The translations under genes and the position numbers were made by a program. Of a stretch of 64,000 nucleotides of DNA, positions 41,951 to 64,000 are shown piece by piece (position 1 is the stretch's first letter; each line of letters opens with the position of its first letter). The stretch spans positions 26,861,611 to 26,925,610 of the forward strand of contig NC_092576.1 in assembly GCF_037975245.1 (NCBI RefSeq), written 5' to 3'. The stretch comes from Apostichopus japonicus. Lineage: Eukaryota > Echinodermata > Holothuroidea > Aspidochirotida > Stichopodidae. The notes beneath the pieces were generated by a model, which worked only from the letters and a program-made list of their open reading frames with translations, did not search any database and was not told the origin of the DNA.

Positions 41951-42553
41951 TAAAAAATAGGGCATTATAAATCACAATATACAAACTCGTCTCACTATAC
42001 ATTCCGTCATTCAAATTATTGGCACGCTCGTACTTTCTTTTTCAAGTTAGTCGTTTCTAGCTAAAGAACTTTCAGGTAAGTTATTGATGCTCATTTTCTC
42101 TTTTTTTTTGTGGTTGTAATCATGTTTACTGGCAAGTCGATTACTTTTTCACAATTATTAAAAGCAAATCTAGCTTCAGTGATCATAGCCAATGTTCGCC
42201 TTTCAATAGCAATAACACAGAGAGAGGACAGTCTAGGGGCAAGTCAGGAGAATGTAAAAAGAATTAATTTCATGAACTCGCAGCCTGCAGATCATGTCAG
42301 AAACAGTGTTTACAGCTCAGTGGCTCCCTCTCTCTCTCACCTTTTCGTAGACGTCCTGAAGTTGCTTGGCATCAATAAGTGATATTTGTGCCAGATATTG
42401 TTGTAGGAAAAAGAAATATGAACACGACGGTTGTGTGCGTTTGATTTGATTATGTTTTTACGTATATGGTATAAGCAGAAATGCCCAAATGATAGTCTCG
42501 TATCATTTGGAAATTTATCAATTTTTTTTAACCTAGCACGGCGAAACGACAAC

Positions 42554-43995
42554 ATGGAGACGGTAAACATTCAGTTGGCTTTACTGATCCTCGCGTCCAG
42601 TGTCCAGGGGGAACCTTGTCCGCAAACCTGTCGGTGCACTTACGGTAGTATCTTCTGTGACGGAGACAGAGACAACATCACTACTATCTTTCCGATAAAC
42701 CAATTCTATTCTTGGCCAAGCTCGCTTTTAGTGTCTAATACGGACATTCCAGGTCTTCAGTCAGGACAGATTGTCCTTCCATTTATGCCCAATCTTCTCT
42801 CGTTGAACCTTCCCCACAATCAAATTTGGGCTGTGAATGTATCGCTGGTTGGAAACAATTCACACATCTCCTATCTGAGTCTAACGCACAACAACTTGAC
42901 AAGGATTCCGACGGAATTGCTGCAAGTTCTAGAAGATCTGGAGAGTGTTTACTTAGGTTGGAATCAAATCGTGTCAGTGCCACCGTTCGCTTTCCACATG
43001 AACATGAAACTTCTCTCTCTGTCCTTGACGTACAACAAGATACATACAACCACACCTGACTCATTCAGAGGGTTGGAACAGTTAAGAGAGTTACAACTGT
43101 TTGGTAATATCTTAAGCGATTTTCCTCTTGATGAACTTATACAAGGTTCACTTACAAACTTAACGAGTCTACATCTCCACGAGAATGTTATGTCCAACAT
43201 AATATTAAAGGTTAATGAATCATGCTTTTCTTCAAGTTTGCTGAGAGTCATTTCCTTCAACTTCAACAGGCTTAATCGTTTAGACAAAAATGCATTCTGT
43301 GCTTTTAGAAACCTTAACTCTTTCTCTGCTCGTGATAACACCATACTTGAAGTAGATGATTTGCTGTTTGGAAGTGAACCACATCAGAGGTTTTGACTTT
43401 GCGCAATAATTCCTTAAGTGAAATTCCTACGCAACTACTACTGCATTTACCTGACCTGCGTTTGTTATCGTTACGCGCGAACAAAATCACGTATGTGCCG
43501 AAAAATGCTCTCGTAAGTAACGATCGCTTAGCTACCGTTTCTTTGTCACATAACTGGATAGTTTCGCTAGACATTTCATCCCTCCAAGGACTAAATAGTC
43601 TTGACCTGCTTGATCTGCAAGGAAACAACTTGACCAGATTACCCGAGGGGATATTTGACCCTGTCGGGGACTTCGGCATCGACTTGCGTGATAATCCTTG
43701 GTATTGCGATTGCAAAATTATATTCCTTAAGACCTGGATCTTGAGAAGTCAATATTTTCGACATGAAATGTTATGCACTAATCCGATCGAATATCGTGGT
43801 ATAGATGTGAACGCGTTACCGTTTATTCCATGCGTAGCGACGACCAGTAGGCCTACTGTAGTCATGGATACGTCGGTTGCTTTAGTAACAGGGAGCTTAG
43901 CAAACGACGCACACTATAATAACAGTTCATCAGGCCCTTTATATTTTGCTGTATGTTTTGTTATGTTCCTATTCTTTTCGGTCAGAATTGAATAG
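42554..43995 (+). pseudogene. LRR receptor-like protein (LRRNT-LRRs-LRRCT-hydrophobic tail), one frameshift
   Basis: The start at 42554 gives a signal peptide (METVNIQLALLILASSVQG), then an LRRNT cysteine cap (CPQTCRCTYGSIFC), about ten leucine-rich repeats, an LRRCT cap (NPWYCDCKIIFLKTW...C...C) and a Thr/Ser-rich stalk with N-glycosylation sequons. The last segment, LYFAVCFVMFLFFSV, is followed by only three residues, so it is either a membrane anchor with no tail or a GPI-attachment signal. The protein would be extracellular, ~480 residues. The frame breaks near 43382-43392: the first part stops at 43394-43396 and the rest continues one base out of phase, as if one base were missing. That is either a sequencing error or a recent loss of function. 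No introns. Confidence 0.75.
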
Positions 43996-46637: not shown

Positions 46638-47418
46638 TTATCGAGACCTCTCGCATTCAAACGTAACACTACCAATAGTACCGCTGGCAGCCCTTACAAC
46701 CTTCTCTAATTTAAACGAAGAATCCTTTGTAAGCAGCCCGTAAAAACAAATAATACTAAAAGTCAGCACGCTTTGTATCACTGACTGGTAAAAAAGTACA
46801 AGAATAGTGTTGTCGACATTAAAATATTTCAGTTTACATAAAAAGTACAATCGTTGGCAAGCTTTTGATCTAATTGCATCAACCTGGTTTTTGAAGTTAA
46901 GTTTACAGTCAATGGAAGTACCTAGATATTTATAGTGGTGCACCTTTTCGACAATCTCCTCATTAACCCTGATTTGAGCATGATCATGTGGCTGTTTTCT
47001 GAAGTCAAATACTATCTCCTTAGTTTTTTTGCCATTCAATTTGAGGTAGTTTTGGTTGCACCAAGTAACACAATCTTCGATTTCCTTCTCATACGGAGCA
47101 ACGACATCATTGTGCAGGTAACCGGTTATCACGGTATCATCAGCATATTTAATAATAGAACAGACATCGTGTTTACTTCTGCAATCGTTAGTGTATAAGC
47201 AGAAAGGGACAGGAGATAGATAGCATCCCTGAGGGGCACCAGTACTAACGGATCGAACATCAGAGCAAATGCCATTTAATTTAACAAACTGTGGTCTGTC
47301 TCTTAAATAGTTTAAGATCCACAACAGTAACCTGCAATTTACACCAATAGCTAACAGTTTATTAATTAATAAGTGCGGCTGAATGGAGTTGAAGGCACTT
47401 GAAAAGTCAACAAAGAAA
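46638..47418 (-). pseudogene. Non-LTR retrotransposon reverse transcriptase (Rex1/CR1-like), partial but open
   Basis: From 47418 the minus strand reads VDFSSAFNSIQPHLL (motif A region), GAPQGCYLSP (motif B), KYADDTVITG (motif C, the catalytic YADD), LNGKKTKEIVFDFR and HHYKYLGTSIDCKLNF. All three palm motifs are intact over ~260 residues with no stop, unusual among the dead LINEs here. It lacks the endonuclease and N-terminus: 5' of 47418 is a short TTTC-rich run and then unrelated sequence. The C-terminal tail ends early at 46638. It is a 5'-truncated and fairly young copy. Confidence 0.85.
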
Positions 47419-48125
47419 GAAAGAAAGAAAATAAACTAGAGCACCAATGGTGCAGAAGCTCATACCTTTTCGAGCTTAAAAATGTAGGGCCCACAAAACT
47501 TTATGGCCCACCAAATTTCAGATTCCTCCAATTTTGGGCCTAGAGGGATAACCCCCCCCCCCCTCCGTTAGCAGCATCCTGGCCACACCACTGGCTATAA
47601 TTCCTATTTTCCCCCTTTAAATCCTATTTTACCCACTCTCTCAAACAATACCACTGACCTACCCTATTTAACTTTCTCCCCTCTACCTGAGCAGACATAA
47701 CTCCTTCCCAAAATTTTGGCTGGCTACCTACATACCTCAGGCTCAAAGACTTCTAAGAATCGGCAAGTGCTGATTGGCTATAGGGCTCTCATGCTTACAG
47801 TTCAACAGTTAATAACAACTCCCAATACTGCTTTAATACCACTAACAGCCTCTGCAGAGCTTAACCACAAATGTAAACAAACACTGCAGAGACTGGGAGA
47901 CAAATTAAAGGAGCTTTGGAAAAAGGTGAAGGCTCAGATTTTTCTAAAAGATGGGGATTAATTGTAATTAAATAACTTTTGACCAAAAATTATTAGGCAT
48001 CACCTTATTCATACACAATCCAACAATCATCAGTTCAACTTTGAATATGATCCATCAAAATCTTGAGGAGATTGAGATATTTGAAAATATTACAAAGAAT
48101 GACCCCCGATGACCCCCTAAATAAC
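47419..48125. other. No gene seen; repeat-derived
   Basis: Contains TGCAGAAGCTCATACC near 47450, related to the AGCTCA...TGAGCT end at 48571-48602, so the whole 47437-48602 may be one element. The frame 47716-47961 (81 codons, basic) has no domain. Confidence 0.3.
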
Positions 48126-49055: not shown

Positions 49056-49060
49056 AGATT

Positions 49061-49819
49061 TGTTGAAAATCACTCTAAGCCCCGCCCTCTCATTAATATT
49101 CATGATATTAGCACCAAAATAAATAGGGATCGTCTACTCATGATGGGTAACCTATGTACCAAGAATGAGATCAATCCACCTTGGGATTGCTGAGAAAACC
49201 TAATTTCAAGCTTTTTTGCGAAAAACAACACTTAGCCCCGCCCCTCATGAATAATAATGAGATTGGACAAACTGTCACCATATTCATATAGAGGACTTTC
49301 CTCTTGTACCACCAAACCAAGTTCCATGAAAATTTAACTTACGGTTGCGAAGATATTGACATTTGTTGAAAATCACTCTAAGCCCCGCCCACTCATTAAT
49401 ATTCATGATATTAGCACCAAAATAAATAGGGATCGTCTACTCATGATGGGTAACCTATGTACCAAGAATGAGATCAATCCACCTTGGGATTGCTGAGAAA
49501 ACCTAATTTCAAGCTTTTTTGCGAAAAACAACACTTAGCCCCGCCCCTCATGAATAATAATGAGATTGGACAAACTGTCACCATATTCATATAGAGGACT
49601 TTCCTCTTGTACCACCAAACCAAGTTCCATGAAAATTTAACTTACGGTTGCGAAGATATTGACATTTGTTGAAAATCACTCTAAGCCCCGCCCACTCATT
49701 AATATTCATGATATTAGCACCAAAATAAATAGGGATCGTCTACTCATGATGGGTAACCTATGTACCAAGAATGAGATCAATCTACCTTGGGATTGCTGAG
49801 AAAACCTAATTTCAAGCTT
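49061..49819 (+). repeat. 303-bp tandem repeat, 2.5 copies
   Basis: Units start at 49061, 49364 and 49667 with TGTTGAAAATCACTC and are nearly identical (for example CCGCCCTCT against CCGCCCACT). The third stops at AATTTCAAGCTT. Each holds two AGCCCCGCCC boxes and ATTAATATTCATGAT palindromes. Confidence 0.9.
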
Positions 49820-50007: not shown

Positions 50008-51368
50008 TCACACCGATAGAGAGCCTTCCCTGAAGTCTGTTTTGCCGATCAAACAATTGACCAGAGCCGGTTTGTTGCTTTTGCTGTCCTCTTTGGCCTT
50101 CATTAGTATTTCCCTGATTCCTTCTGTTGTCTCCTCGCTGAGACGGTAACCAGTACCGCCGTAGCCTATTGCGACTTTGTCATAGTCGCAGAACTGTAGA
50201 GGGCGACGAAAGAAGAACAAACATATATTCAAGAGCTTTCTGATCAGAAAGGTATGTTAAAAACAAAACTTTGCAAAGGATGTGTTTAATTGTATAATAC
50301 AGTGCTGGTGAAATTTACTTTACCACCTCACAAAGACTGCTATGTACGTAACGTTGAGTGGCTTGACTGGTCTGTTAACAAATTGCTATCGGTAAATATT
50401 TTCAAAACTTGTGTCTTCTCTTTGACCAGCTGATCGGCATATCGACCACTGGCTATTAATCAAAATCCAAACTGAGGCTAAAGAAATGGGTTGTTTAGGG
50501 CAGATTAATGAATCGTCGCAAGTAACAAGAAGTGGCTTTGTTGTGCCAAAAAAAAATGTTCAATATCGGTTTGCTGTTATCAGCAACGAGGCTAAATTTT
50601 ACTAAAAGATACCGATACGCCATCACTGATGCAAATATCGGTGCATACCGACACAACACAATCATGGTTCTCATAGGCGTAGGAGGCGGGGGGACTGGGG
50701 GGGCTGCAGCCCCCCAACCAATCGGGCAATATGCTGTGAATTTTTTGGGCACCTACTGAAAGAAAAGTAATTTGCACTGTGTTTTTCAATGGTTAAACTT
50801 ATATTATTATTATTATCATTATTATTGTAACGACTTCCCCAATAATTATAACCAATATGGAAGGGTATTAACATGGCAAATGATTGTATGTTATTTGCAT
50901 GAGATGTTATAACCGATACATGCCCTAATGATATGCACATTAACATGATGAACACCAACCATTCTTCAAGGAAATCTCTACCTCCCCCCACTCCCTGCAA
51001 GTTTATGAATGATGAAATATCAATGTCTTTTTTCTCCCCTTGCCAAACTGTTTCAAAGACAAAACCAGGATGATAATACTGAGAGTGAACTCACCGTCAA
51101 GTCACAAGCCACCCTGGTGCTGAAGATCTTTTCTTGGTCTCGTACGATCTGAGTCCAGCAGGCGTCGTTACCGACCACCGCTATCACCGGTATCTTATGT
51201 CTACTGAAGGTGTCAAACTCGGCCACGCTGTACCCCAGGGTCCCGTCCCCGTAGATGATCCAGACCTCGCAGTCTGGTCGACACAACTTGGCACCGAGAG
51301 CGAAACCGCCTCCGACTCCCAGAGTGCCGAAGGCTCCCGGGTCCAGCCACTTCAAGGGTCCACGGGGT
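50008..51368 (-). CDS. ILVBL: ILVBL / HACL2 (2-hydroxyacyl-CoA lyase 2), last two exons
   Basis: Exons 51368-51095 and 50193-50008, spliced CTCTAG|A, ACG|GTGAGT and CTACAG|TTC, join in phase and encode the C-terminal ~152 residues. [19 protein letters not shown], then the thiamine-diphosphate motif starting IYGDG and ending VVGNDACW, and the final [11 protein letters not shown] match animal ILVBL closely. The family is a thiamine-diphosphate enzyme of the acetolactate-synthase fold, anchored in the endoplasmic reticulum. It cleaves 2-hydroxyacyl-CoA to an aldehyde and formyl-CoA in fatty-acid alpha-oxidation. The N-terminal three quarters lies beyond the window, or beyond the minisatellite. 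No frameshift or lost residue is seen in the part present. Confidence 0.9.
50660..50755. repeat. G/C-run inverted repeat in the last ILVBL intron
   Basis: GGCGGGGGGACTGGGGGGGCTGCAGCCCCCCAACC: the GGGGGGCTGCAGCCCCCC core is a palindrome, and the flanks (CATAGGCGTAGGAGG ... GGGCACCTACTG) resemble small DNA-transposon edges common in marine invertebrates. Overlapping frames 50495-50789 are produced by it. The rest of this 901-bp intron holds only an ATT microsatellite near 50800-50826. Confidence 0.55.
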
Positions 51369-52151
51369 CTAGAGGGAAGGACGGTTAAACGATTTAGGGA
51401 TACAAAGATTTAGGAATGAAGTAAAACAGAGAATATTATACAAATACTAAACCATTACAAACAGGATATCTATGATTGGCTGTTGCTATTGGTTACCGCT
51501 TGCGAGAAGATATGAACCCACGTATTATTTGCCGTTTTGTCACTCTGGCAAGCTATTGATGGAATCGAAGTAACAGCGTAACATTTTGTGGTTAATAATT
51601 CATGCATCACTTGTGTTGGGAAAACATGATGTAACTTTCATCAGCTCTGTTTGGACTAATGTTACATAATGTAAGAAGGACAACCTTTATAGATCACTGG
51701 AATACAATACTCAAGACTGTATTGTTGAAATAATAAGTATATTTTTCACCATTCAAACCAAGGCTGCGTGCATGCAGCTGTTTAATTCAGTGAGAGACGT
51801 TTTTATTAGACTGTTCACACCTCTCAACCCACCTCACCTCAAGAAACTACCCCATTTGAAGATGTTAACTGTACTATCAAATGTGTACTCCTAAGTAGAC
51901 TTCATAAGCTGAAGTCCACCTCATCCCCATCTACAAAATAAAGTAACTCCTCTAAGTGTTAACTGTTCTACCTATAACATCAAAGCAAATACTGTTGTGA
52001 CAATGATTTAGTTGAGACACCACACCACACCACACCCACCCCACCACAACCCCTCCTACCTCAAGTAATTCAATTTAACTATTTAAACTTCACTAACTGT
52101 GAATCAGACCAAACTATACTTTACCAACCATACACAAAACTGTTTCTACTG
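51369..52151 (-). other. Upstream ILVBL intron, non-repeat part
   Basis: No further ILVBL exon is visible. A CAC/CCA-rich tract lies at 52020-52055. CCTCCTACCTCAAG at 52056-52069 matches the minisatellite core and may be a stray or ancestral unit. Confidence 0.5.
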
Positions 52152-54829
52152 TTTATTTCCACCTACCTGAGGATGTCACTTTATTTTCTCCTACCTGAGG
52201 ATGTCACTTTATTACCTCCTACCTGAGGATGTCACTTTATTTCCTCCTACCTGAGGATGTCACTTTATTTCCTCCTACCTGAGGATGTCACTTTATTTCC
52301 TCCTACCTGAGGATGTCACTTTATTTCCTCCTACCTGAGGATGTCACTTTATTTCCTCCTACCTGAGGATGTCACTTTATTTCCTCCTACCTGAGGATGT
52401 CACTTTATTTCCTCCTACCTGAGGATGTCACTTTATTTCCTCCTACCTGAGGATGTCACTTTATTTCCTCCTACCTGAGGATGTCACTTTATTTCCTCCT
52501 ACCGGAAGATGTCACTTTATTTCCTCCTACCTGAGGATGTCACTTTATATCCTCCTACCTATGGATGTCACTTTATATCCTCCTACCTGAGGATGTCACT
52601 TTATTTCCTTCTACCTATGGATGTCACTTTATTTCCTCCTACCTGAGGATGTCACTTTATATCCTCCTACCTGAGGATGTCACTTTATATCCTCCTACCT
52701 ATGGATGTCACTTTATTTCCTCCTACCTGAGGATGTCACTTTATTTCCTCCTACCTGAGGATGTCACTTTATATCCTCCTACCTGAGGATGTCACTTTAT
52801 TTCCTCCTACCTGAGGATGTCACTTTATTTCCTCCTACCGGAAGATGTCACTTTATTTCCTCCTACCTGAGGATGTCACTTTATATCCTCCTACCTATGG
52901 ATGTCACTTTATTTCCTCCTACCTGAAGATGTCACTTTATTTCCTCCTACCTGAGGATGTCACTTTATATCCTCCTACCTGAGGATGTCACTTAACTTCC
53001 TCCTACCTGAGGATGTCACTTTATTTCTTCCTACCTGAAGATGTCACTTTATTTCCTCCTACCTGAGGATGTCACTTTATTTCCTCCTACCTGAGGATGT
53101 CACTTTATTTCCTCCTACCTGAGGATGTCACTTTATATCCTCCTACCTGAGGATGTCACTTTATATCCTCCTACCTAAGGATGTCACTTTATTTCCTCCT
53201 TCCTGAGGATGTCACTTTATTTCCTCCTACCGGAAGATGTCACTTTATTTCCTCCTACCTGAGGATGTCACTTTATATCCTCCTACCTATGGATGTCACT
53301 TTATTTCCTCCTACCTGAGGATGTCACTTTATTTCTTCCTACCTGAGGATGTCACATTATTTCCTCCTACCTGAGGATGTCACTTTATATCCTCCTACCT
53401 GAGGATGTCACTTAACTTCCTCCTACCTGAGGATGTCACTTTATTTCTTCCTACCTGAGGATGTCACTTTATTTCCTCCTACCTGAGGATGTCACTTTAT
53501 TTCCTCCTACCTGAGGATGTCACTTAACTTCCTCCTACCTGAGGATGTCACTTTATATCCTCCTACCTATGGATGTCACTTTATTTCCTCCTACCTGAGG
53601 ATGTCACTTTATTTCCTCCTACCTGAGGATGTCACTTTATATCCTCCTACCTGAGGATGTCACTTAACTTCCTCCTACCTGAGGATGTCACTTTATTTCC
53701 TCCTACCTGAGGATGTCACTTTATTTCCTCCTACCTGAGGATGTCACTTTATATCCTCCTACCTGAGGATGTCACTTTATTTCCTCCTACCTGAGGATGT
53801 CACTTTATTTCCTCCTACCGGAAGATGTCACTTTATTTCCTCCTACCTGAGGATGTCACTTTATATCCTCCTACCTATGGATGTCACTTTATTTCCTCCT
53901 ACCTGAGGATGTCACTTTATTTCCTCCTACCTGAGGATGTCACTTTATATCCTCCTACCTGAGGATGTCACTTAACTTCCTCCTACCTGAGGATGTCACT
54001 TTATTTCCTCCTACCGGAAGATGTCACTTTATTTCTTCCTACCTGAGGATGTCACTTTATTTCCTCCTACCTGAGGATGTCACTTTATTTCCTCCTACCT
54101 GAGGATGTCACTTTATTTCCTCCTACCTGAGGATGTCACTTTATATCCTCCTACCTATGGATGTCACTTTATTTCCTCCTACCTGAGGATGTCACTTTAT
54201 TTCCTCCTACCTGAGGATGTCACTTTATATCCTCCTACCTGAGGATGTCACTTAACTTCCTCCTACCTGAGGATGTCACTTTATTTCTTCCTACCTGAGG
54301 ATGTCACTTTATTTCCTCCTACCTGAGGATGTCACTTTATTTCCTCCTACCTGAGGATGTCACTTTATTTCCTCCTACCTGAGGATGTCACTTTATATCC
54401 TCCTACCTGAGGATGTCACTTTATATCCTCCTACCTAAGGATGTCACTTTATTTCCTCCTTCCTGAGGATGTCACTTTATTTCCTCCTACCGGAAGATGT
54501 CACTTTATTTCCTCCTACCTGAGGATGTCACTTTATATCCTCCTACCTATGGATGTCACTTTATATCCTCCTACCTGAGGATGTCACTTTATTTCCTCCT
54601 ACCTGAGGATGTCACTTTATTTCCTCCTACCTGAGGATGTCACTTTATTTCCTCCTACCTGAGGATGTCACTTTATATTCTCCTACCTATGGATGTCACT
54701 TTATTTCCTCCTACCTGAGGATGTCACTTTATTTCCTCCTACCTGAGGATGTCACTTTATATCCTCCTACCTGAGGATGTCACTTTATATCCTCCTACCT
54801 GAGGATGTCACTTTATTTCCTCCTACCTG

Positions 54830-56070
54830 AGGATGTCACTTTATATCCTCCTACCTGAGGATGTCACTTTATTTCTTCCTACCTGAGGATGTCACTTTAT
54901 ATCCTCCTACCTGAGGATGTCACTTTATTTCCTCCTACCTGAGGATGTCACTTTATTTCCTCCTACCTGAGGATGTCACTTTATATCCTCCTACCTGAGG
55001 ATGTCACTTTATATCCTCCTACCTCAGGATGTCACTTTATTTCCTCCTTCCTGAGGATGTCACTTTATTTCCTCCTACCTGAGGATGTCACTTTATATCC
55101 TCCTACCTGAGGATGTCACTTTATATCCTACTACCTATGGATGTCACTTTATTTCCTCCTACCTGAGGATGTCACTTTATATCCTCCTACCTCAGGATGT
55201 CACTTTATTTCCTCCTACCTGAGGATGTCACTTTATTTCCTCCTACCTGAGGATGTCACTTTATTTCCTCCTACCTGAGGATGTCACTTTATTTCCTCCT
55301 ACCTGAGGATGTCACTTTATATCCTCCTACCTGAGGATGTCACTTTATATCCTCCTACCGGAAGATGTCACTTTATATCCTCCTACCTGAGGATGTCACT
55401 TTATATCCTCCTACCTAAGGATGTCACTTTATTTCCTCCTACCTGAGGATGTCACTTTATTTCCTCCTACCTGAGGATGTCACTTTATATCCTCCTACCT
55501 GAGGATGTCACTTTATATCCTCCTACCTATGGATGTCACTTTATTTCCTCCTACCTGAGGATGTCACTTTATTTCCTCCTACCTGAGGATGTCACTTTAT
55601 ATCCTCCTACCTAAGGATGTCACTTTATTTCCTCCTTCCTGAGGATGTCACTTTATTTCCTCCTACCTGAGGATGTCACTTTATATCCTCCTACCTGAGG
55701 ATGTCACTTTATTTCTTCCTACCTGAGGATGTCACTTTATTTCCTCCTACCTGAGGATGTCACTTTATTTCCTCCTACCTGAGGATGTCACTTTATTTCC
55801 TCCTACCTGAGGATGTCACTTTATATCCTCCTACCTGAGGATGTCACTTTATATCCTCCTACCTAAGGATGTCACTTTATTTCCTCCTTCCTGAGGATGT
55901 CACTTTATTTCCTCCTACCTGAGGATGTCACTTTATATCCTCCTACCTGAGGATGTCACTTTATTTCCTCCTACCTGAGGAAGTCACTTTATTTCCTCCT
56001 ACCGGAAGATGTCACTTTATTTCCTCCTACCTGAGGATGTCACTTTATTTCCTCCTACCTGAGGATGTCA
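54830..56070 (+). repeat. Higher-order block of the minisatellite, copy 1
   Basis: Almost base-for-base identical to 59450-60690 at an offset of 4620 bp (165 units). Line-by-line comparison shows only about three differences. Confidence 0.85.
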
Positions 56071-57819
56071 CTTTATATCCTCCTACCTAAGGATGTCACT
56101 TTATATCCTCCTACCTATGGATGTCACTTTATTTCCTCCTACCTGAGGATGCCACTTTATTTCCTCCTACCTGAGGATGTCACTTTATATCCTCCTACCT
56201 GAGGATGTCACTTTATTTCCTCCTACCTGAGGAAGTCACTTTATTTCCTCCTACCGGAAGATGTCACTTTATATCCTCCTACCTATGGATGTCACTTTAT
56301 TTCCTCCTACCTGAGGATGTCACTTTATTTCTTCCTACCTGAGGATGTCACTTTATTTCCTCCTACCTGAGGATGTCACTTTATTTCTTCCTACCTGAGG
56401 ATGTCACTTTATTTCCTCCTACCTGAGGATGTCACTTTATTTCCTCCTACCTGAGGATGTCACTTTATATCCTCCTACCTGAGGATGTCACTTTATTTCC
56501 TCCTACCTGAGGAAGTCACTTTATTTCCTCCTACCGGAAGATGTCACTTTATTTCCTCCTACCTGAGGATGTCACTTTATATCCTCCTACCTAAGGATGT
56601 CACTTTATATCCTCCTACCTGAGGATGTCACTTTATTTCCTCCTACCTATGGATGTCACTTTATTTCCTCCTACCTGAGGATGCCACTTTATTTCCTCCT
56701 ACCTGAGGATGTCACTTTATATCCTCCTACCTGAGGATGTCACTTTATTTCCTCCTACCTGAGGAAGTCACTTTATTTCCTCCTACCGGAAGATGTCACT
56801 TTATTTCCTCCTACCTGAGGATGTCACTTTATATCCTCCTACCTATGGATGTCACTTTATTTCCTCCTACCTGAGGATGTCACTTTATTTCCTCCTACCT
56901 AAGGATGTCACTTTATTTCCTCCTACCTGAGGATGTCACTTTATTCCCTCCTTCCTGAGGATGTCACTTTATTTTCTCCTACCTGAGGATGTCACTTTAT
57001 TTCCTCCTACCGGAAGATGTCACTTTATTTCCTCCTACCTGAGGAAGTCACTTTATTTCCTCCTACCGGAAGATGTCACTTTATTTCCTCCTACCTGAGG
57101 ATGTCACTTTATATCCTCCTACCTATGGATGTCACTTTATTTCCTCCTACCTGAGGATGTCACTTTATATCCTCCTACCTGAGGATGTCACTTTATTTCC
57201 TCCTACCTGAGGATGTCACTTTATTCCCTCCTTCCTGAGGATGTCACTTTATTTCCTCCTACCTGAGGATGTCACTTTATTTCCTCCTACCTAAGGATGT
57301 CACTTTATTTCCTCCTACCTAAGGATGTCACTTTATTCCCTCCTACCTAAGGATGTCACTTTATTCCCTCCTACCTGAGGATGTCACTTTATTTCCTCCT
57401 ACCTAAGGATGTCACTTTATATCCTCCTACCTATGGATGTCACTTTATTTCCTCCTACCTGAGGATGTCACTTTATTTCCTCCTACCTGAGGATGTCACT
57501 TTATATCCTCCTACCTGAGGATGTCACTTTATTTCCTCCTACCTAAGGATGTCACTTTATTTCCTCCTACCTGAGGATGTCACTTTATTCCCTCCTTCCT
57601 GAGAATGTCACTTTATTTTCTCCTACCTGAGGATGTCACTTTATTTCCTCCTACCTAAGGATGTCACTTTATTTCCTCCTACCTAAGGAGGTCACTTTAT
57701 TCCCTCCTACCTAAGGATGTCACTTTATTCCCTCCTACCTGAGGATGTCACTTTATTTCCTCCTACCTAAGGATGTCACTTTATTTCCTCCTACCTAAGG
57801 ATGTCACTTTATTTCCTCC

Positions 57820-58500
57820 TACCTGAGGATGTCACTTTATTCCCTCCTACCTGAGGATGTCACTTTATTTCCTCCTACCTAGGGATGTCACTTTATTTCC
57901 TCCTACCTAAGGATGTCATTTTATTTCCTCCTACCTAAGGATGTCACTTTATTCCCTCCTACCTAAGGATGTCACTTTATTCCCTCCTACCTGAGGATGT
58001 CACTTTATTTCCTCCTACCTAAGGATGTCACTTTATTTCCTCCTACCTGAAAATGTCACTTTATTTCCTCCTACCTGAGGATATTACCTTATTTCCTCCC
58101 ACCTGAGGATGTCCCTTTATATCCTCCTACCTGAGGATGTCACTTTATTCCCTCCTTCCTGAGGATATCACTTTATTCCCTCCTTCCTGAGGATATCACT
58201 TTATTTCCTCCTACCTGAGGATGTCACTTTTTTCCCTCCTACCTGAGGATGTCACTTTATTTCCTCCTACCTGAGGATGTCACTTTATTTTCTCCTACCT
58301 ATGGATGTCACTTTATTTCCTCCTACCTGAGGATGCCACTTTATTTCCTCCTACCTGAGGATGTCACTTTATTTTCTCCTACCTATGGATGTCACTTTAT
58401 TTCCTCCTACCTGAGGATGCCACTTTATTTCCTCCTACCTGAGGATGTCACTTTATATCCTCCTACCTGAGGATGTCACTTTATTTCCTCCTACCTGAGG
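57820..58500 (+). repeat. Higher-order block with rare variants, copy 1
   Basis: Rare variants (CTAGGGATG, GAAAATGTC, ATATTAC, CTCCCACC, CACTTTTTTCCC) recur in the same order at 62496-63176, offset 4676 bp (167 units). Confidence 0.85.
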
Positions 58501-59449
58501 AAGTCACTTTATTTCCTCCTACCGGAAGATGTCACTTTATTTCCTCCTACCTGAGGATGTCACTTTATATCCTCCTACCTATGGATGTCACTTTATTTCC
58601 TCCTACCTGAGGATGTCACTTTATATCCTCCTACCTGAGGATGTCACTTTATTTCCTCCTACCTGAGGATGTCACTTTATTCCCTCCTTCCTGAGGATGT
58701 CACTTTATTTCCTCCTACCTGAGGATGTCACTTTATTTCCTCCTACCTAAGGATGTCACTTTATTTCCTCCTACCTAAGGATGTCACTTTATTCCCTCCT
58801 ACCTAAGGATGTCACTTTATTCCCTCCTACCTGAGGATGTCACTTTATTTCCTCCTACCTAAGGATGTCACTTTATATCCTCCTACCTATGGATGTCACT
58901 TTATTTCCTCCTACCTGAGGATGTCACTTTATTTCCTCCTACCTGAGGATGTCACTTTATATCCTCCTACCTGAGGATGTCACTTAACTTCCTCCTACCT
59001 GAGGATGTCACTTTATTTCTTCCTACCTGAGGATGTCACTTTATTTCCTCCTACCTGAGGATGTCACTTTATTTCCTCCTACCTGAGGATGTCACTTTAT
59101 TTCCTCCTACCTGAGGATGTCACTTTATTTCCTCCTACCTGAGGATGTCACTTTATTTCCTCCTACCTGAGGATGTCACTTTATATCCTCCTACCTGAGG
59201 ATGTCACTTTATATCCTCCTACCGGAAGATGTCACTTTATATCCTCCTACCTGAGGATGTCACTTTATATCCTCCTACCTAAGGATGTCACTTTATTTCC
59301 TCCTACCTGAGGATGTCACTTTATTTCCTCCTACCTGAGGATGTCACTTTATATCCTCCTACCTGAGGATGTCACTTTATATCCTCCTACCTATGGATGT
59401 CACTTTATTTCCTCCTACCTGAGGATGTCACTTTATTTCCTCCTACCTG

Positions 59450-60690
59450 AGGATGTCACTTTATATCCTCCTACCTGAGGATGTCACTTTATTTCTTCCT
59501 ACCTGAGGATGTCACTTTATATCCTCCTACCTGAGGATGTCACTTTATTTCCTCCTACCTGAGGATGTCACTTTATTTCCTCCTACCTGAGGATGTCACT
59601 TTATATCCTCCTACCTGAGGATGTCACTTTATATCCTCCTACCTCAGGATGTCACTTTATTTCCTCCTTCCTGAGGATGTCACTTTATTTCCTCCTACCT
59701 GAGGATGTCACTTTATATGCTCCTACCTGAGGATGTCACTTTATATCCTACTACCTATGGATGTCACTTTATTTCCTCCTACCTGAGGATGTCACTTTAT
59801 ATCCTCCTACCTCAGGATGTCACTTTATTTCCTCCTACCTGAGGATGTCACTTTATTTCCTCCTACCTGAGGATGTCACTTTATTTCCTCCTACCTGAGG
59901 ATGTCACTTTATTTCCTCCTACCTGAGGATGTCACTTTATATCCTCCTACCTGAGGATGTCACTTTATATCTTCCTACCGGAAGATGTCACTTTATATCC
60001 TCCTACCTGAGGATGTCACTTTATATCCTCCTACCTAAGGATGTCACTTTATTTCCTCCTACCTGAGGATGTCACTTTATTTCCTCCTACCTGAGGATGT
60101 CACTTTATATCCTCCTACCTGAGGATGTCACTTTATATCCTCCTACCTATGGATGTCACTTTATTTCCTCCTACCTGAGGATGTCACTTTATTTCCTCCT
60201 ACCTGAGGATGTCACTTTATATCCTCCTACCTAAGGATGTCACTTTATTTCCTCCTTCCTGAGGATGTCACTTTATTTCCTCCTACCTGAGGATGTCACT
60301 TTATATCCTCCTACCTGAGGATGTCACTTTATTTCTTCCTACCTGAGGATGTCACTTTATTTCCTCCTACCTGAGGATGTCACTTTATTTCCTCCTACCT
60401 GAGGATGTCACTTTATTTCCTCCTACCTGAGGATGTCACTTTATATCCTCCTACCTGAGGATGTCACTTTATATCCTCCTACCTAAGGATGTCACTTTAT
60501 TTCCTCCTTCCTGAGGATGTCACTTTATTTCCTCCTACCTGAGGATGTCACTTTATATCCTCCTACCTGAGGATGTCACTTTATTTCCTCCTACCTGAGG
60601 AAGTCACTTTATTTCCTCCTACCGGAAGATGTCACTTTATTTCCTCCTACCTGAGGATGTCACTTTATTTCCTCCTACCTGAGGATGTCA
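59450..60690 (+). repeat. Higher-order block of the minisatellite, copy 2
   Basis: Partner of 54830-56070. Part of it (around 59860-60580) is repeated again about 812 bp (29 units) further on, marked by the rare CTTCCTACCGGAAG variant at 59971 and 60783. Confidence 0.8.
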
Positions 60691-62495
60691 CTTTATTTCC
60701 TCCTACCTGAGGATGTCACTTTATTTCCTCCTACCTGAGGATGTCACTTTATATCCTCCTACCTGAGGATGTCACTTTATATCTTCCTACCGGAAGATGT
60801 CACTTTATATCCTCCTACCTGAGGATGTCACTTTATATCCTCCTACCTAAGGATGTCACTTTATTTCCTCCTACCTGAGGATGTCACTTTATTTCCTCCT
60901 ACCTGAGGATGTCACTTTATATCCTCCTACCTGAGGATGTCACTTTATATCCTCCTACCTATGGATGTCACTTTATTTCCTCCTACCTGAGGATGTCACT
61001 TTATTTCCTCCTACCTGAGGATGTCACTTTATATCCTCCTACCTAAGGATGTCACTTTATTTCCTCCTTCCTGAGGATGTCACTTTATTTCCTCCTACCT
61101 GAGGATGTCACTTTATATCCTCCTACCTGAGGATGTCACTTTATTTCTTCCTACCTGAGGATGTCACTTTATTTCCTCCTACCTGAGGATGTCACTTTAT
61201 TTCCTCCTACCTGAGGATGTCACTTTATTTCCTCCTACCTGAGGATGTCACTTTATATCCTCCTACCTGAGGATGTCACTTTATATCCTCCTACCTAAGG
61301 ATGTCACTTTATTTCCTCCTTCCTGAGGATGTCACTTTATTTCCTCCTACCTGAGGATGTCACTTTATATCCTCCTACCTGAGGATGTCACTTTATTTCC
61401 TCCTACCTGAGGAAGTCACTTTATTTCCTCCTACCGGAAGATGTCACTTTATTTCCTCCTACCTGAGGATGTCACTTTATTTCCTCCTACCTGAGGATGT
61501 CACTTTATATCCTCCTACCTAAGGATGTCACTTTATATCCTCCTACCTATGGATGTCACTTTATTTCCTCCTACCTGAGGATGCCACTTTATTTCCTCCT
61601 ACCTGAGGATGTCACTTTATATCCTCCTACCTGAGGATGTCACTTTATTTCCTCCTACCTGAGGAAGTCACTTTATTTCCTCCTACCGGAAGATGTCACT
61701 TTATATCCTCCTACCTATGGATGTCACTTTATTTCCTCCTACCTGAGGATGTCACTTTATTTCTTCCTACCTGAGGATGTCACTTTATTTCCTCCGACCT
61801 GAGGATGTCACTTTATTTCTTCCTACCTGAGGATGTCACTTTATTTCCTCCTACCTGAGGATGTCACTTTATTTCCTCCTACCTGAGGATGTCACTTTAT
61901 ATCCTCCTACCTGAGGATGTCACTTTATTTCCTCCTACCTGAGGAAGTCACTTTATTTCCTCCTACCGGAAGATGTCACTTTATTTCCTCCTACCTGAGG
62001 ATGCCACTTTATTTCCTCCTACCTGAGGATGTCACTTTATATCCTCCTACCTGAGGATGTCACTTTATTTCCTCCTACCTGAGGAAGTCACTTTATTTCC
62101 TCCTACCGGAAGATGTCACTTTATTTCCTCCTACCTGAGGATGTCACTTTATATCCTCCTACCTATGGATGTCACTTTATTTCCTCCTACCTGAGGATGT
62201 CACTTTATTTCCTCCTACCTAAGGATGTCACTTTATTTCCTCCTACCTGAGGATGTCACTTTATTCCCTCCTTCCTGAGGATGTCACTTTATTTTCTCCT
62301 ACCTGAGGATGTCACTTTATTTCCTCCTACCTAAGGATGTCACTTTATTTCCTCCTACCTAAGGAGGTCCCTTTATTCCCTCCTACCTAAGGATGTCACT
62401 TTATTCCCTCCTACCTGAGGATGTCACTTTATTTCCTCCTACCTAAGGATGTCACTTTATTTCCTCCTACCTAAGGATGTCACTTTATTTCCTCC

Positions 62496-63176
62496 TACCT
62501 GAGGATGTCACTTTATTCCCTCCTACCTGAGGATGTCACTTTATTTCCTCCTACCTAGGGATGTCACTTTATTTCCTCCTACCTAAGGATGTCACTTTAT
62601 TTCCTCCTACCTAAGGATGTCACTTTATTCCCTCCTACCTAAGGATGTCACTTTATTCCCTCCTACCTGAGGATGTCACTTTATTTCCTCCTACCTAAGG
62701 ATGTCACTTTATTTCCTCCTACCTGAAAATGTCACTTTATTTCCTCCTACCTGAGGATATTACTTTATTTCCTCCCACCTGAGGATGTCACTTTATATCC
62801 TCCTACCTGAGGATGTCACTTTATTCCCTCCTTCCTGAGGATATCACTTTATTCCCTCCTTCCTGAGGATATCACTTTATTTCCTCCTACCTGAGGATGT
62901 CACTTTTTTCCCTCCTACCTGAGGATGTCACTTTATTTCCTCCTACCTGAGGATGTCACTTTATTTTCTCCTACCTATGGATGTCACTTTATTTCCTCCT
63001 ACCTGAGGATGCCACTTTATTTCCTCCTACCTGAGGATGTCACTTTATTTTCTCCTACCTATGGATGTCACTTTATTTCCTCCTACCTGAGGATGCCACT
63101 TTATTTCCTCCTACCTGAGGATGTCACTTTATATCCTCCTACCTGAGGATGTCACTTTATTTCCTCCTACCTGAGG
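62496..63176 (+). repeat. Higher-order block with rare variants, copy 2
   Basis: Partner of 57820-58500. A partial third version, with CTCCCACC and two GGATATCAC-type units, appears near 63840-63960. Confidence 0.8.
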
Positions 63177-64000
63177 AAGTCACTTTATTTCCTCCTACCG
63201 GAAGATGTCACTTTATTTCCTCCTACCTGAGGATGTCACTTTATATCCTCCTACCTATGGATGTCACTTTATTTCCTCCTACCTGAGGATGTCACTTTAT
63301 ATCCTCCTACCTGAGGATGTCACTTTATTTCCTCCTACCTGAGGATGTCACTTTATTCCCTCCTTCCTGAGGATGTCACTTTATTTCCTCCTACCTGAGG
63401 ATGTCACTTTATTTCCTCCTACCTAAGGATGTCACTTTATTTCCTCCTACCTAAGGATGTCACTTTATTCCCTCCTACCTAAGGATGTCACTTTATTCCC
63501 TCCTACCTGAGGATGTCACTTTATTTCCTCCTACCTAAGGATGTCACTTTATTTCCTCCTACCTAAGGATGTCACTTTATTTCCTCCTACCTGAGGATGT
63601 CACTTTATTCCCTCCTACCTGAGGATGTCACTTTATTTCCTCCTACCTAAGGATGTCACTTTATTTCCTCCTACCTAAGGATGTCACTTTATTTCCTCCT
63701 ACCTAAGGATGTCACTTTATTCCCTCCTACCTAAGGATGTCACTTTATTCCCTCCTACCTGAGGATGTCACTTTATTTCCTCCTACCTAAGGATGTCACT
63801 TTATTTCCTCCTACCTGAGGATGTCACTTTATTTCCTCCTACCTGAGGATATCACTTTATTTCCTCCCACCTGAGGATGTCACTTTATATCCTCCTACCT
63901 GAGGATGTCACTTTATTCCCTCCTTCCTGAGGATATCACTTTATTCCCTCCTTCCTGAGGATGTCACTTTATTTCCTCCTACCTGAGGATGTCACTTTTT

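Follow-up and report, generated by a model that had tools for sequence, protein, structure and literature searches.

Among the repeats of the Apostichopus japonicus genome, one raises the question of how a splicing signal can come to be repeated hundreds of times beside a single gene, and to what effect. The 64,000-nucleotide stretch analysed here (C16:26861611-26925610, hereafter the window) ends in a 28-bp tandem array whose unit carries a motif resembling a 5' splice site and, shortly after it, a polyadenylation signal. A first-pass annotation of this DNA had placed the array in an intron of the gene ILVBL, on its sense strand, which is borne out by the present analysis, and had suggested that the motifs act together on U1 and on ILVBL. 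The array was found to be a tandem repeat that spans an exon-intron boundary, with the exon end and the adjoining splice signal of the intron in its unit. It is likely, in our judgement, that it is a minisatellite derived from the ILVBL donor, of the type termed 'mirage', which has grown to satellite size in a gene copy that is probably a pseudogene, its effects on splicing being deduced. The features of the window on which the argument depends are as follows.

52152-64000, minus strand: the 28-bp array as far as the window edge (423 units out of about 9,434), continuing on C16 to 27177926
51369-52151, minus strand: rest of the intron, outside the array, from the distal end of the array to the 3' splice site (CTCTAG|A); it includes a short ACACC repeat (52017-52048)
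51095-51368, minus strand: ILVBL exon after the array (TPP_enzyme_C), its 3' limit being the limit of the protein match
50011-50199, minus strand: last ILVBL coding exon, both limits being those of the protein match

The repeat unit and the ILVBL donor

The array in the window was delimited by Tandem Repeats Finder (TRF) to 52152-63998, with a period of 28, 423.1 copies, 93% matches and 0% indels, and the distance from unit to unit is 28 for all 422 of the 422 spacings. Read on the minus strand, the unit is GTGACATCCTCAGGTAGGAGGAAATAAA and contains CAG|GTAGGA (the bar marks the exon-intron boundary) with AATAAA 7 bases past the GT, in agreement with the earlier description, whose named variants are also correct (TATAAA 109 times and CCGGTAGGA 23 times in the window array). 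Its figure of about 420 motif pairs holds as a count of units (423) and does not hold as a count of intact CAG|GT and AATAAA pairs, since CAGGT is at its place in 286 units, AATAAA in 303 and both in 215. In the array, the sequence CAGGTAGGA was counted 281 times on the sense strand, as against 0 times on both strands of the remaining 52 kb of the window. This enrichment is far beyond chance, yet it represents one seed copied repeatedly and not hundreds of independent motifs. Scans of the window for Rfam families (gathering scores) and for tRNAs gave 0 matches.

Five copies of the gene, A to E, are considered below, copy A being that of the window. The gene was assigned to ILVBL by matches to TPP_enzyme_C and TPP_enzyme_N and by the exon after the array, which in copies A-C has about 72% identity to a human ILVBL sequence. 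The unit consists of the 13 last bases of the exon and the 15 first bases of the intron at the ILVBL donor boundary, ACATCCTCAG|GTAGGAGGAAATAAA. The motif is a copy of the real donor and not merely splice-site-like, a source that the first-pass annotation had missed. The donor exon (...VADGGDFVGSAAYIL) terminates in CTTACATCCTCAG|GTAGGAGGAAATAAA and the very next base belongs to the second unit. The array begins within the last bases of the upstream ILVBL exon, exactly at the boundary, and occupies nearly the whole intron; the upstream exon on which the earlier proposal depended is present, and the array abuts it. The exon ...GSAAYIL is followed by the boundary CTTACATCCTCA[G/T]|GTAGGAGGAAATAAA in 5/5 paralogs and directly by an array in 4/5, and the exon after the array starts CTCTAG|G CCC CGT in copies B-E and CTCTAG|A CCC CGT in copy A. 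Splicing from the first donor was computed to give DGGDFVGSAAYILRPRGP in the paralogs, and splicing from the second to give ...YILR*, a break of the frame.

An independent chance origin of the donor motif was considered and rejected, as the coding end of the exon lies within the unit in all five copies. The related idea that an unrelated minisatellite was inserted beside the exon, its resemblance to a donor being coincidental, is scarcely credible. Minisatellites are common here and another array with a 28-bp period is present in an upstream intron of the paralogs, but in every one of the five copies the unit overlaps both the coding sequence (ATC CTC AG, I-L-R) and the genuine donor. Copy E also has the same boundary with about one unit.

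Array length in the five ILVBL copies

The five ILVBL copies, all on C16, were identified by searching the genome (671.6 Mb in 35 contigs) with the exon after the array, which also returned a distant 46% match on C18; the donor exon was likewise found five times. At the shared boundary, copy A has about 9,434 units (by coordinates), B 29.9, C 114.9 and D 18.1 (TRF), and copy E has one full unit and the start of a second (about 1.3 units), followed by GTGACATCCTTGG and other intron sequence. Instability of length is observed between the paralogs, with about 9,434, 115, 30, 18 and 1.3 units. A search of the genomic DNA with four units, in which common words were skipped, returned one place (copy E), and uniqueness of the array in the genome is not proven by it.

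The array of copy A extends far beyond the window. Two adjoining pieces, up to C16:26943610, are entirely array and provide, together with the window, 1,066 contiguous units. All 17 of 17 spot probes between C16 26948611 and 27163910 are array with the strand unchanged, and no unit was found in 14 of 14 probes from C16 27183611 onward. The far end was read directly, the first unit starting at C16:27177926. Array A thus covers C16:26913762-27177926; by coordinates this is 264,165 bp, or about 9,434 units. It exceeds its window part about 22-fold and runs about 252 kb beyond the window edge. About 2,140 of these units were read (2,176 counted, about 36 of them in two overlapping pieces), and in the five larger pieces every spacing is 28 except two of 30. 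A genome search with an exact 36-mer gave 3,228 matches, all on the reverse strand and, among the matches listed, all on C16, while its reversed control gave 0. Subtraction of the 61 matches in arrays B, C and D leaves 3,167, assuming none elsewhere, where 3,564 were expected by extrapolation.

Within the 1,066 contiguous units, 105 consecutive units are identical at a lag of 246 units and 61 at a lag of 533, and these long identical blocks point to growth by the copying of blocks. The proposed course of events would begin with a tandem duplication of the boundary, placing a second donor 28 bp downstream, and would continue by unequal exchange among units and the copying of whole unit blocks to a different length in each gene copy.

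The genuine donor is CAG|GTAGGA in copies B, C, D and E and CAT|GTAGGA in copy A only. The predicted duplex with U1 is -10.8 kcal/mol for a CAG|GT unit as against -4.2 kcal/mol for the CAT|GT first donor of copy A, and the donor score falls from 8.4 to 4.9 bits by a donor matrix. In addition, one base is missing in copy A from an N-terminal exon upstream of the array (near C16:27205740). Because its donor is changed to CAT|GT and one of its upstream exons lacks one base, the window copy is probably a pseudogene. Copy D has a 1-base deletion in the exon after the array. No frame break was seen in the matched pieces of copy B, or in copy E, of which the fetched stretch ends before the last exon; copy C was read as DNA in its 3' half only.

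Systems of this kind are known. Mirages, described in the cephalochordate Adh3, globin, TnC and PGBD5 genes, are minisatellite-like tandem duplications of an exon-intron boundary together with its splice signal, unstable in length and with homogenised units, BflGb9 being the case on the donor side (PMC3087553, PMC3902484). The BflGb6 mirage, on the acceptor side, has 6 and 3 units in two haplotypes, with units of 150-160 bp, those of Adh3 being 10-72 bp (PMC3087553). The ILVBL array resembles mirages in that its unit carries the exon end with the splice signal and its length differs among paralogs. Mirages have few units, whereas the ILVBL series, at one boundary shared by five paralogs, reaches about 9,434 units, each of 28 bp. 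In human ABCA7, the intron-18 variable number tandem repeat (VNTR) abuts the exon, and its 25-bp unit opens with the donor GT of exon 18; its alleles of about 12-427 units (298-10,678 bp) have been studied for expression and exon skipping (PMC5954066). Its second donor is sometimes used, out of frame, the retention of one unit not rising with length, whereas longer VNTRs went with lower expression and more skipping of the next exon (PMC5954066). As in ABCA7, the first ILVBL unit supplies the real donor of the exon (CAT|GT in the window copy). For the second ILVBL donor a frame break was computed. Unlike ABCA7, array A is about 22 times the longest of those alleles, its unit includes exon bases and its first donor is changed. 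A further parallel is provided by human segmental-duplication genes, which have variable internal tandem repeats at exon-intron boundaries, on average of four 30-bp units (PMC2812944); there too, recent paralogs differ in how many repeats they carry at a splice boundary, although the ILVBL series runs from 1 to about 9,434 units. No report of a boundary array this large was found in the open-licence literature, in which the matching papers were covered in part. The kind of structure is already known, from mirages and the donor VNTR, and what is new is its scale and the series of five copy numbers in one genome.

U1 pairing and variation among the units

The 5' end of U1 small nuclear RNA (snRNA) pairs with the 5' splice site, and U1 bound near an intronic polyadenylation signal suppresses premature cleavage (telescripting). 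The 5' end of the U1 snRNA is canonical in this genome, ATACTTACCTG, in the 8 gene copies read, which lie in three loci and are among the 42 scored matches on C20. The earlier view of the units as good U1 targets is consistent with this canonical U1 and with the predicted duplex of -10.8 kcal/mol. The U1 snRNA genes form a cluster at C20:29019462-29087219, with at least 42 scored matches, many of them about 856 bp apart.

Constraint on the motifs was examined in 1,930 units of array A, which fall into 84 types, by plain means of agreement with the consensus and with no formal test. Averaged by type, the 9 U1-pairing positions agree at 0.915, the AGGT core at 0.935, AATAAA at 0.911 and the remaining positions at 0.932; weighted by copies, the values are 0.966, 0.974, 0.940 and 0.976, respectively. 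By these means over the 84 types, no extra constraint on the U1-pairing bases or on AATAAA is seen relative to the rest of the unit, and selection on these positions, compared in this way, was not seen. The position of lowest agreement is the first A of AATAAA by copies (0.687, 1,066 units) and the C of CAG by types (0.704). Some donor positions are almost invariant (G|G, 0.998 and 1.0, 1,066 units), and positions outside the motifs are likewise. CAGGT is present in 1,378 of the 1,930 units and AATAAA is absent from 655. The CCGGT variant is confined to array A, with 0/30 units in B, 0/114 in C and 0/18 in D.

These data bear on the suggestion that the array is a U1 device under selection, its thousands of U1 sites beside polyadenylation signals working as a sponge, as a telescripting shield or as a brake on ILVBL that depends on length. 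Its merits are the CAGGT of 1,378 units, the canonical U1 and the human precedent of ABCA7, where a longer donor VNTR goes with lower expression and more exon skipping (PMC5954066). Weighing against it are the U1-pairing positions, which are no better conserved than the remainder (0.915 as against 0.932 over the 84 unit types, with the AGGT core at 0.935), the 655 units that lack AATAAA, the absence from the unit of an obvious GU- or U-rich element after AATAAA (judged by eye), the frameshift in the host copy, and the retention of one ABCA7 unit independently of VNTR length (PMC5954066). Since the motif positions are not better conserved, they lend no support to a selected U1 sponge or telescripting device, and with the missing AATAAA signals and the frameshift the sponge and telescripting proposals of the first-pass annotation, and a selected brake, are left unsupported; we consider such a device improbable. 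A length-dependent loss of ILVBL output may nevertheless occur, by analogy with ABCA7 (PMC5954066).

A hairpin, UCCUC-AGGUAG-GAGGA, encloses the donor of the unit; the consensus folds at -6.5 kcal/mol with a z value of -1.81. Among 7 folded unit variants, z ranges from -2.36 to +0.28, and all five stem pairs are present in 1,635 of 1,930 units. The hairpin was not used in the interpretation because the authentic donor has the same one.

Splicing outcomes and accompanying features

If the array is a donor-derived mirage, as preferred here, it would be tolerated because splicing from the donor nearest the exon still takes out the entire intron, array included. Use of a later donor would retain n x 28 nt and bring a TAG stop at once (...YILR*), and as this stop always follows, decoy donors could do no more than waste transcripts. 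Mostly first-donor use would be expected from the sequence in copies B, C, D and E, with little leakage most likely in B, C and E. In copy A the first donor is weak, stronger copies follow from 28 nt on and the frame is shifted; as a result, most of its RNA would be expected to contain a stop or to be poorly processed.

A plain neutral satellite, without effect on any ILVBL copy including A, shares this origin and differs in denying an effect even in copy A, the donor content being an irrelevant by-product of the starting place. The lack of motif-specific constraint on the units is in keeping with it, and amphioxus mirages are reported as not disturbing splicing (PMC3087553, PMC3902484). On the other hand, an intron of 265 kb that has a weak first donor and, by extrapolation, about 6,700 CAG|GT sites would be unlikely to be processed like sisters of 1 to 115 units, and in ABCA7 effects were measurable across alleles of about 300 to 5,400 bp (PMC5954066). 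Full neutrality is regarded as an unlikely account, though one of some weight.

A stronger effect is envisaged if donor number itself sets productive output. The spliceosome would have to choose the exon-proximal site among n near-identical donors, and each extra donor would divert a small share of transcripts into stop-containing RNA. Copy A, with its thousands of donors and a weakened first one, would then be shut down by the very splice site that it repeats, and thousands of U1 particles might collect at this one locus along the 265-kb intron as it is transcribed. We hold such a dose series to be rather doubtful.

Several points weigh against the donor-derived mirage in a probable pseudogene, with the outcomes deduced above. 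Donor use, expression and all the effects on splicing are inferred from genomic sequence. Donor number may have a dose effect on output, and CAT|GT, although weak, may still be functional. Array length, CAT|GT and the 1-base deletions are those of one assembly. The unread stretch of array A is mostly, not provably entirely, the same array, and parts of it may differ (3,167 matches as against 3,564). Arrays are present in copies B and C, which look intact where examined, and copy D is broken with just 18 units; thus, array length does not simply track gene damage and the arrays are no simple mark of dead genes. The single unit of copy E may reflect the original condition or what was left after a deletion, and its junction CATCCTTGG also occurs in the downstream intron of copy C.

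Studies of how the spliceosome chooses among equal 5' splice sites have set two or a few of them in competition. Here, sister genes of one genome carry one donor repeated in tandem about 1, 18, 30, 115 and about 9,434 times in the same intron, such that the rule of choice could be read from ordinary RNA-seq. The locus also indicates that a splice boundary can seed an array of satellite size, far beyond the expanded human ABCA7 alleles described so far in PMC5954066.

Other repeats accompany the ILVBL copies. A second boundary duplication is a 135-142-bp repeat with the exon end ...KIIAVNRNKSQLLL and the donor GTAAGTATAT, present in about 2 copies in A, B and C, 1 in D and about 3 in E, at the following positions on C16.

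A, 27179774-27180011: 135-142-bp boundary repeat
B, 27422160-27422397: 135-142-bp boundary repeat
C, 27505484-27505721: 135-142-bp boundary repeat
D, 27590735-27590830: 135-142-bp boundary repeat
E, 27721237-27721621 (L010:5737-6121): 135-142-bp boundary repeat

A separate AT-rich array with a 28-bp period (GCACATTTTGTATGTAGCATATTGTAAT or its complement) lies in an upstream intron of the paralogs.

L007:6043-7317: AT-rich 28-bp array
L008:8367-9724: AT-rich 28-bp array
L009:5485-6562: AT-rich 28-bp array
L010:2877-3155: AT-rich 28-bp array

Just past the exon that follows the donor intron, copy E has a long tandem repeat with 12-, 69- and 186-bp periods (L010:9005-9830; C16:27724505-27725330). 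Elsewhere in the window, a 303-bp tandem repeat of 2.5 copies with 99% matches is found at 49058-49819, the last ILVBL coding exon ending about 190 bp before it. Open frames of reverse-transcriptase type (RVT_1; zf-RVT) occupy 46638-47435 on the minus strand and 1912-2499 on the plus strand, and a leucine-rich-repeat protein extends across two overlapping open frames at 42422-43995 on the plus strand.

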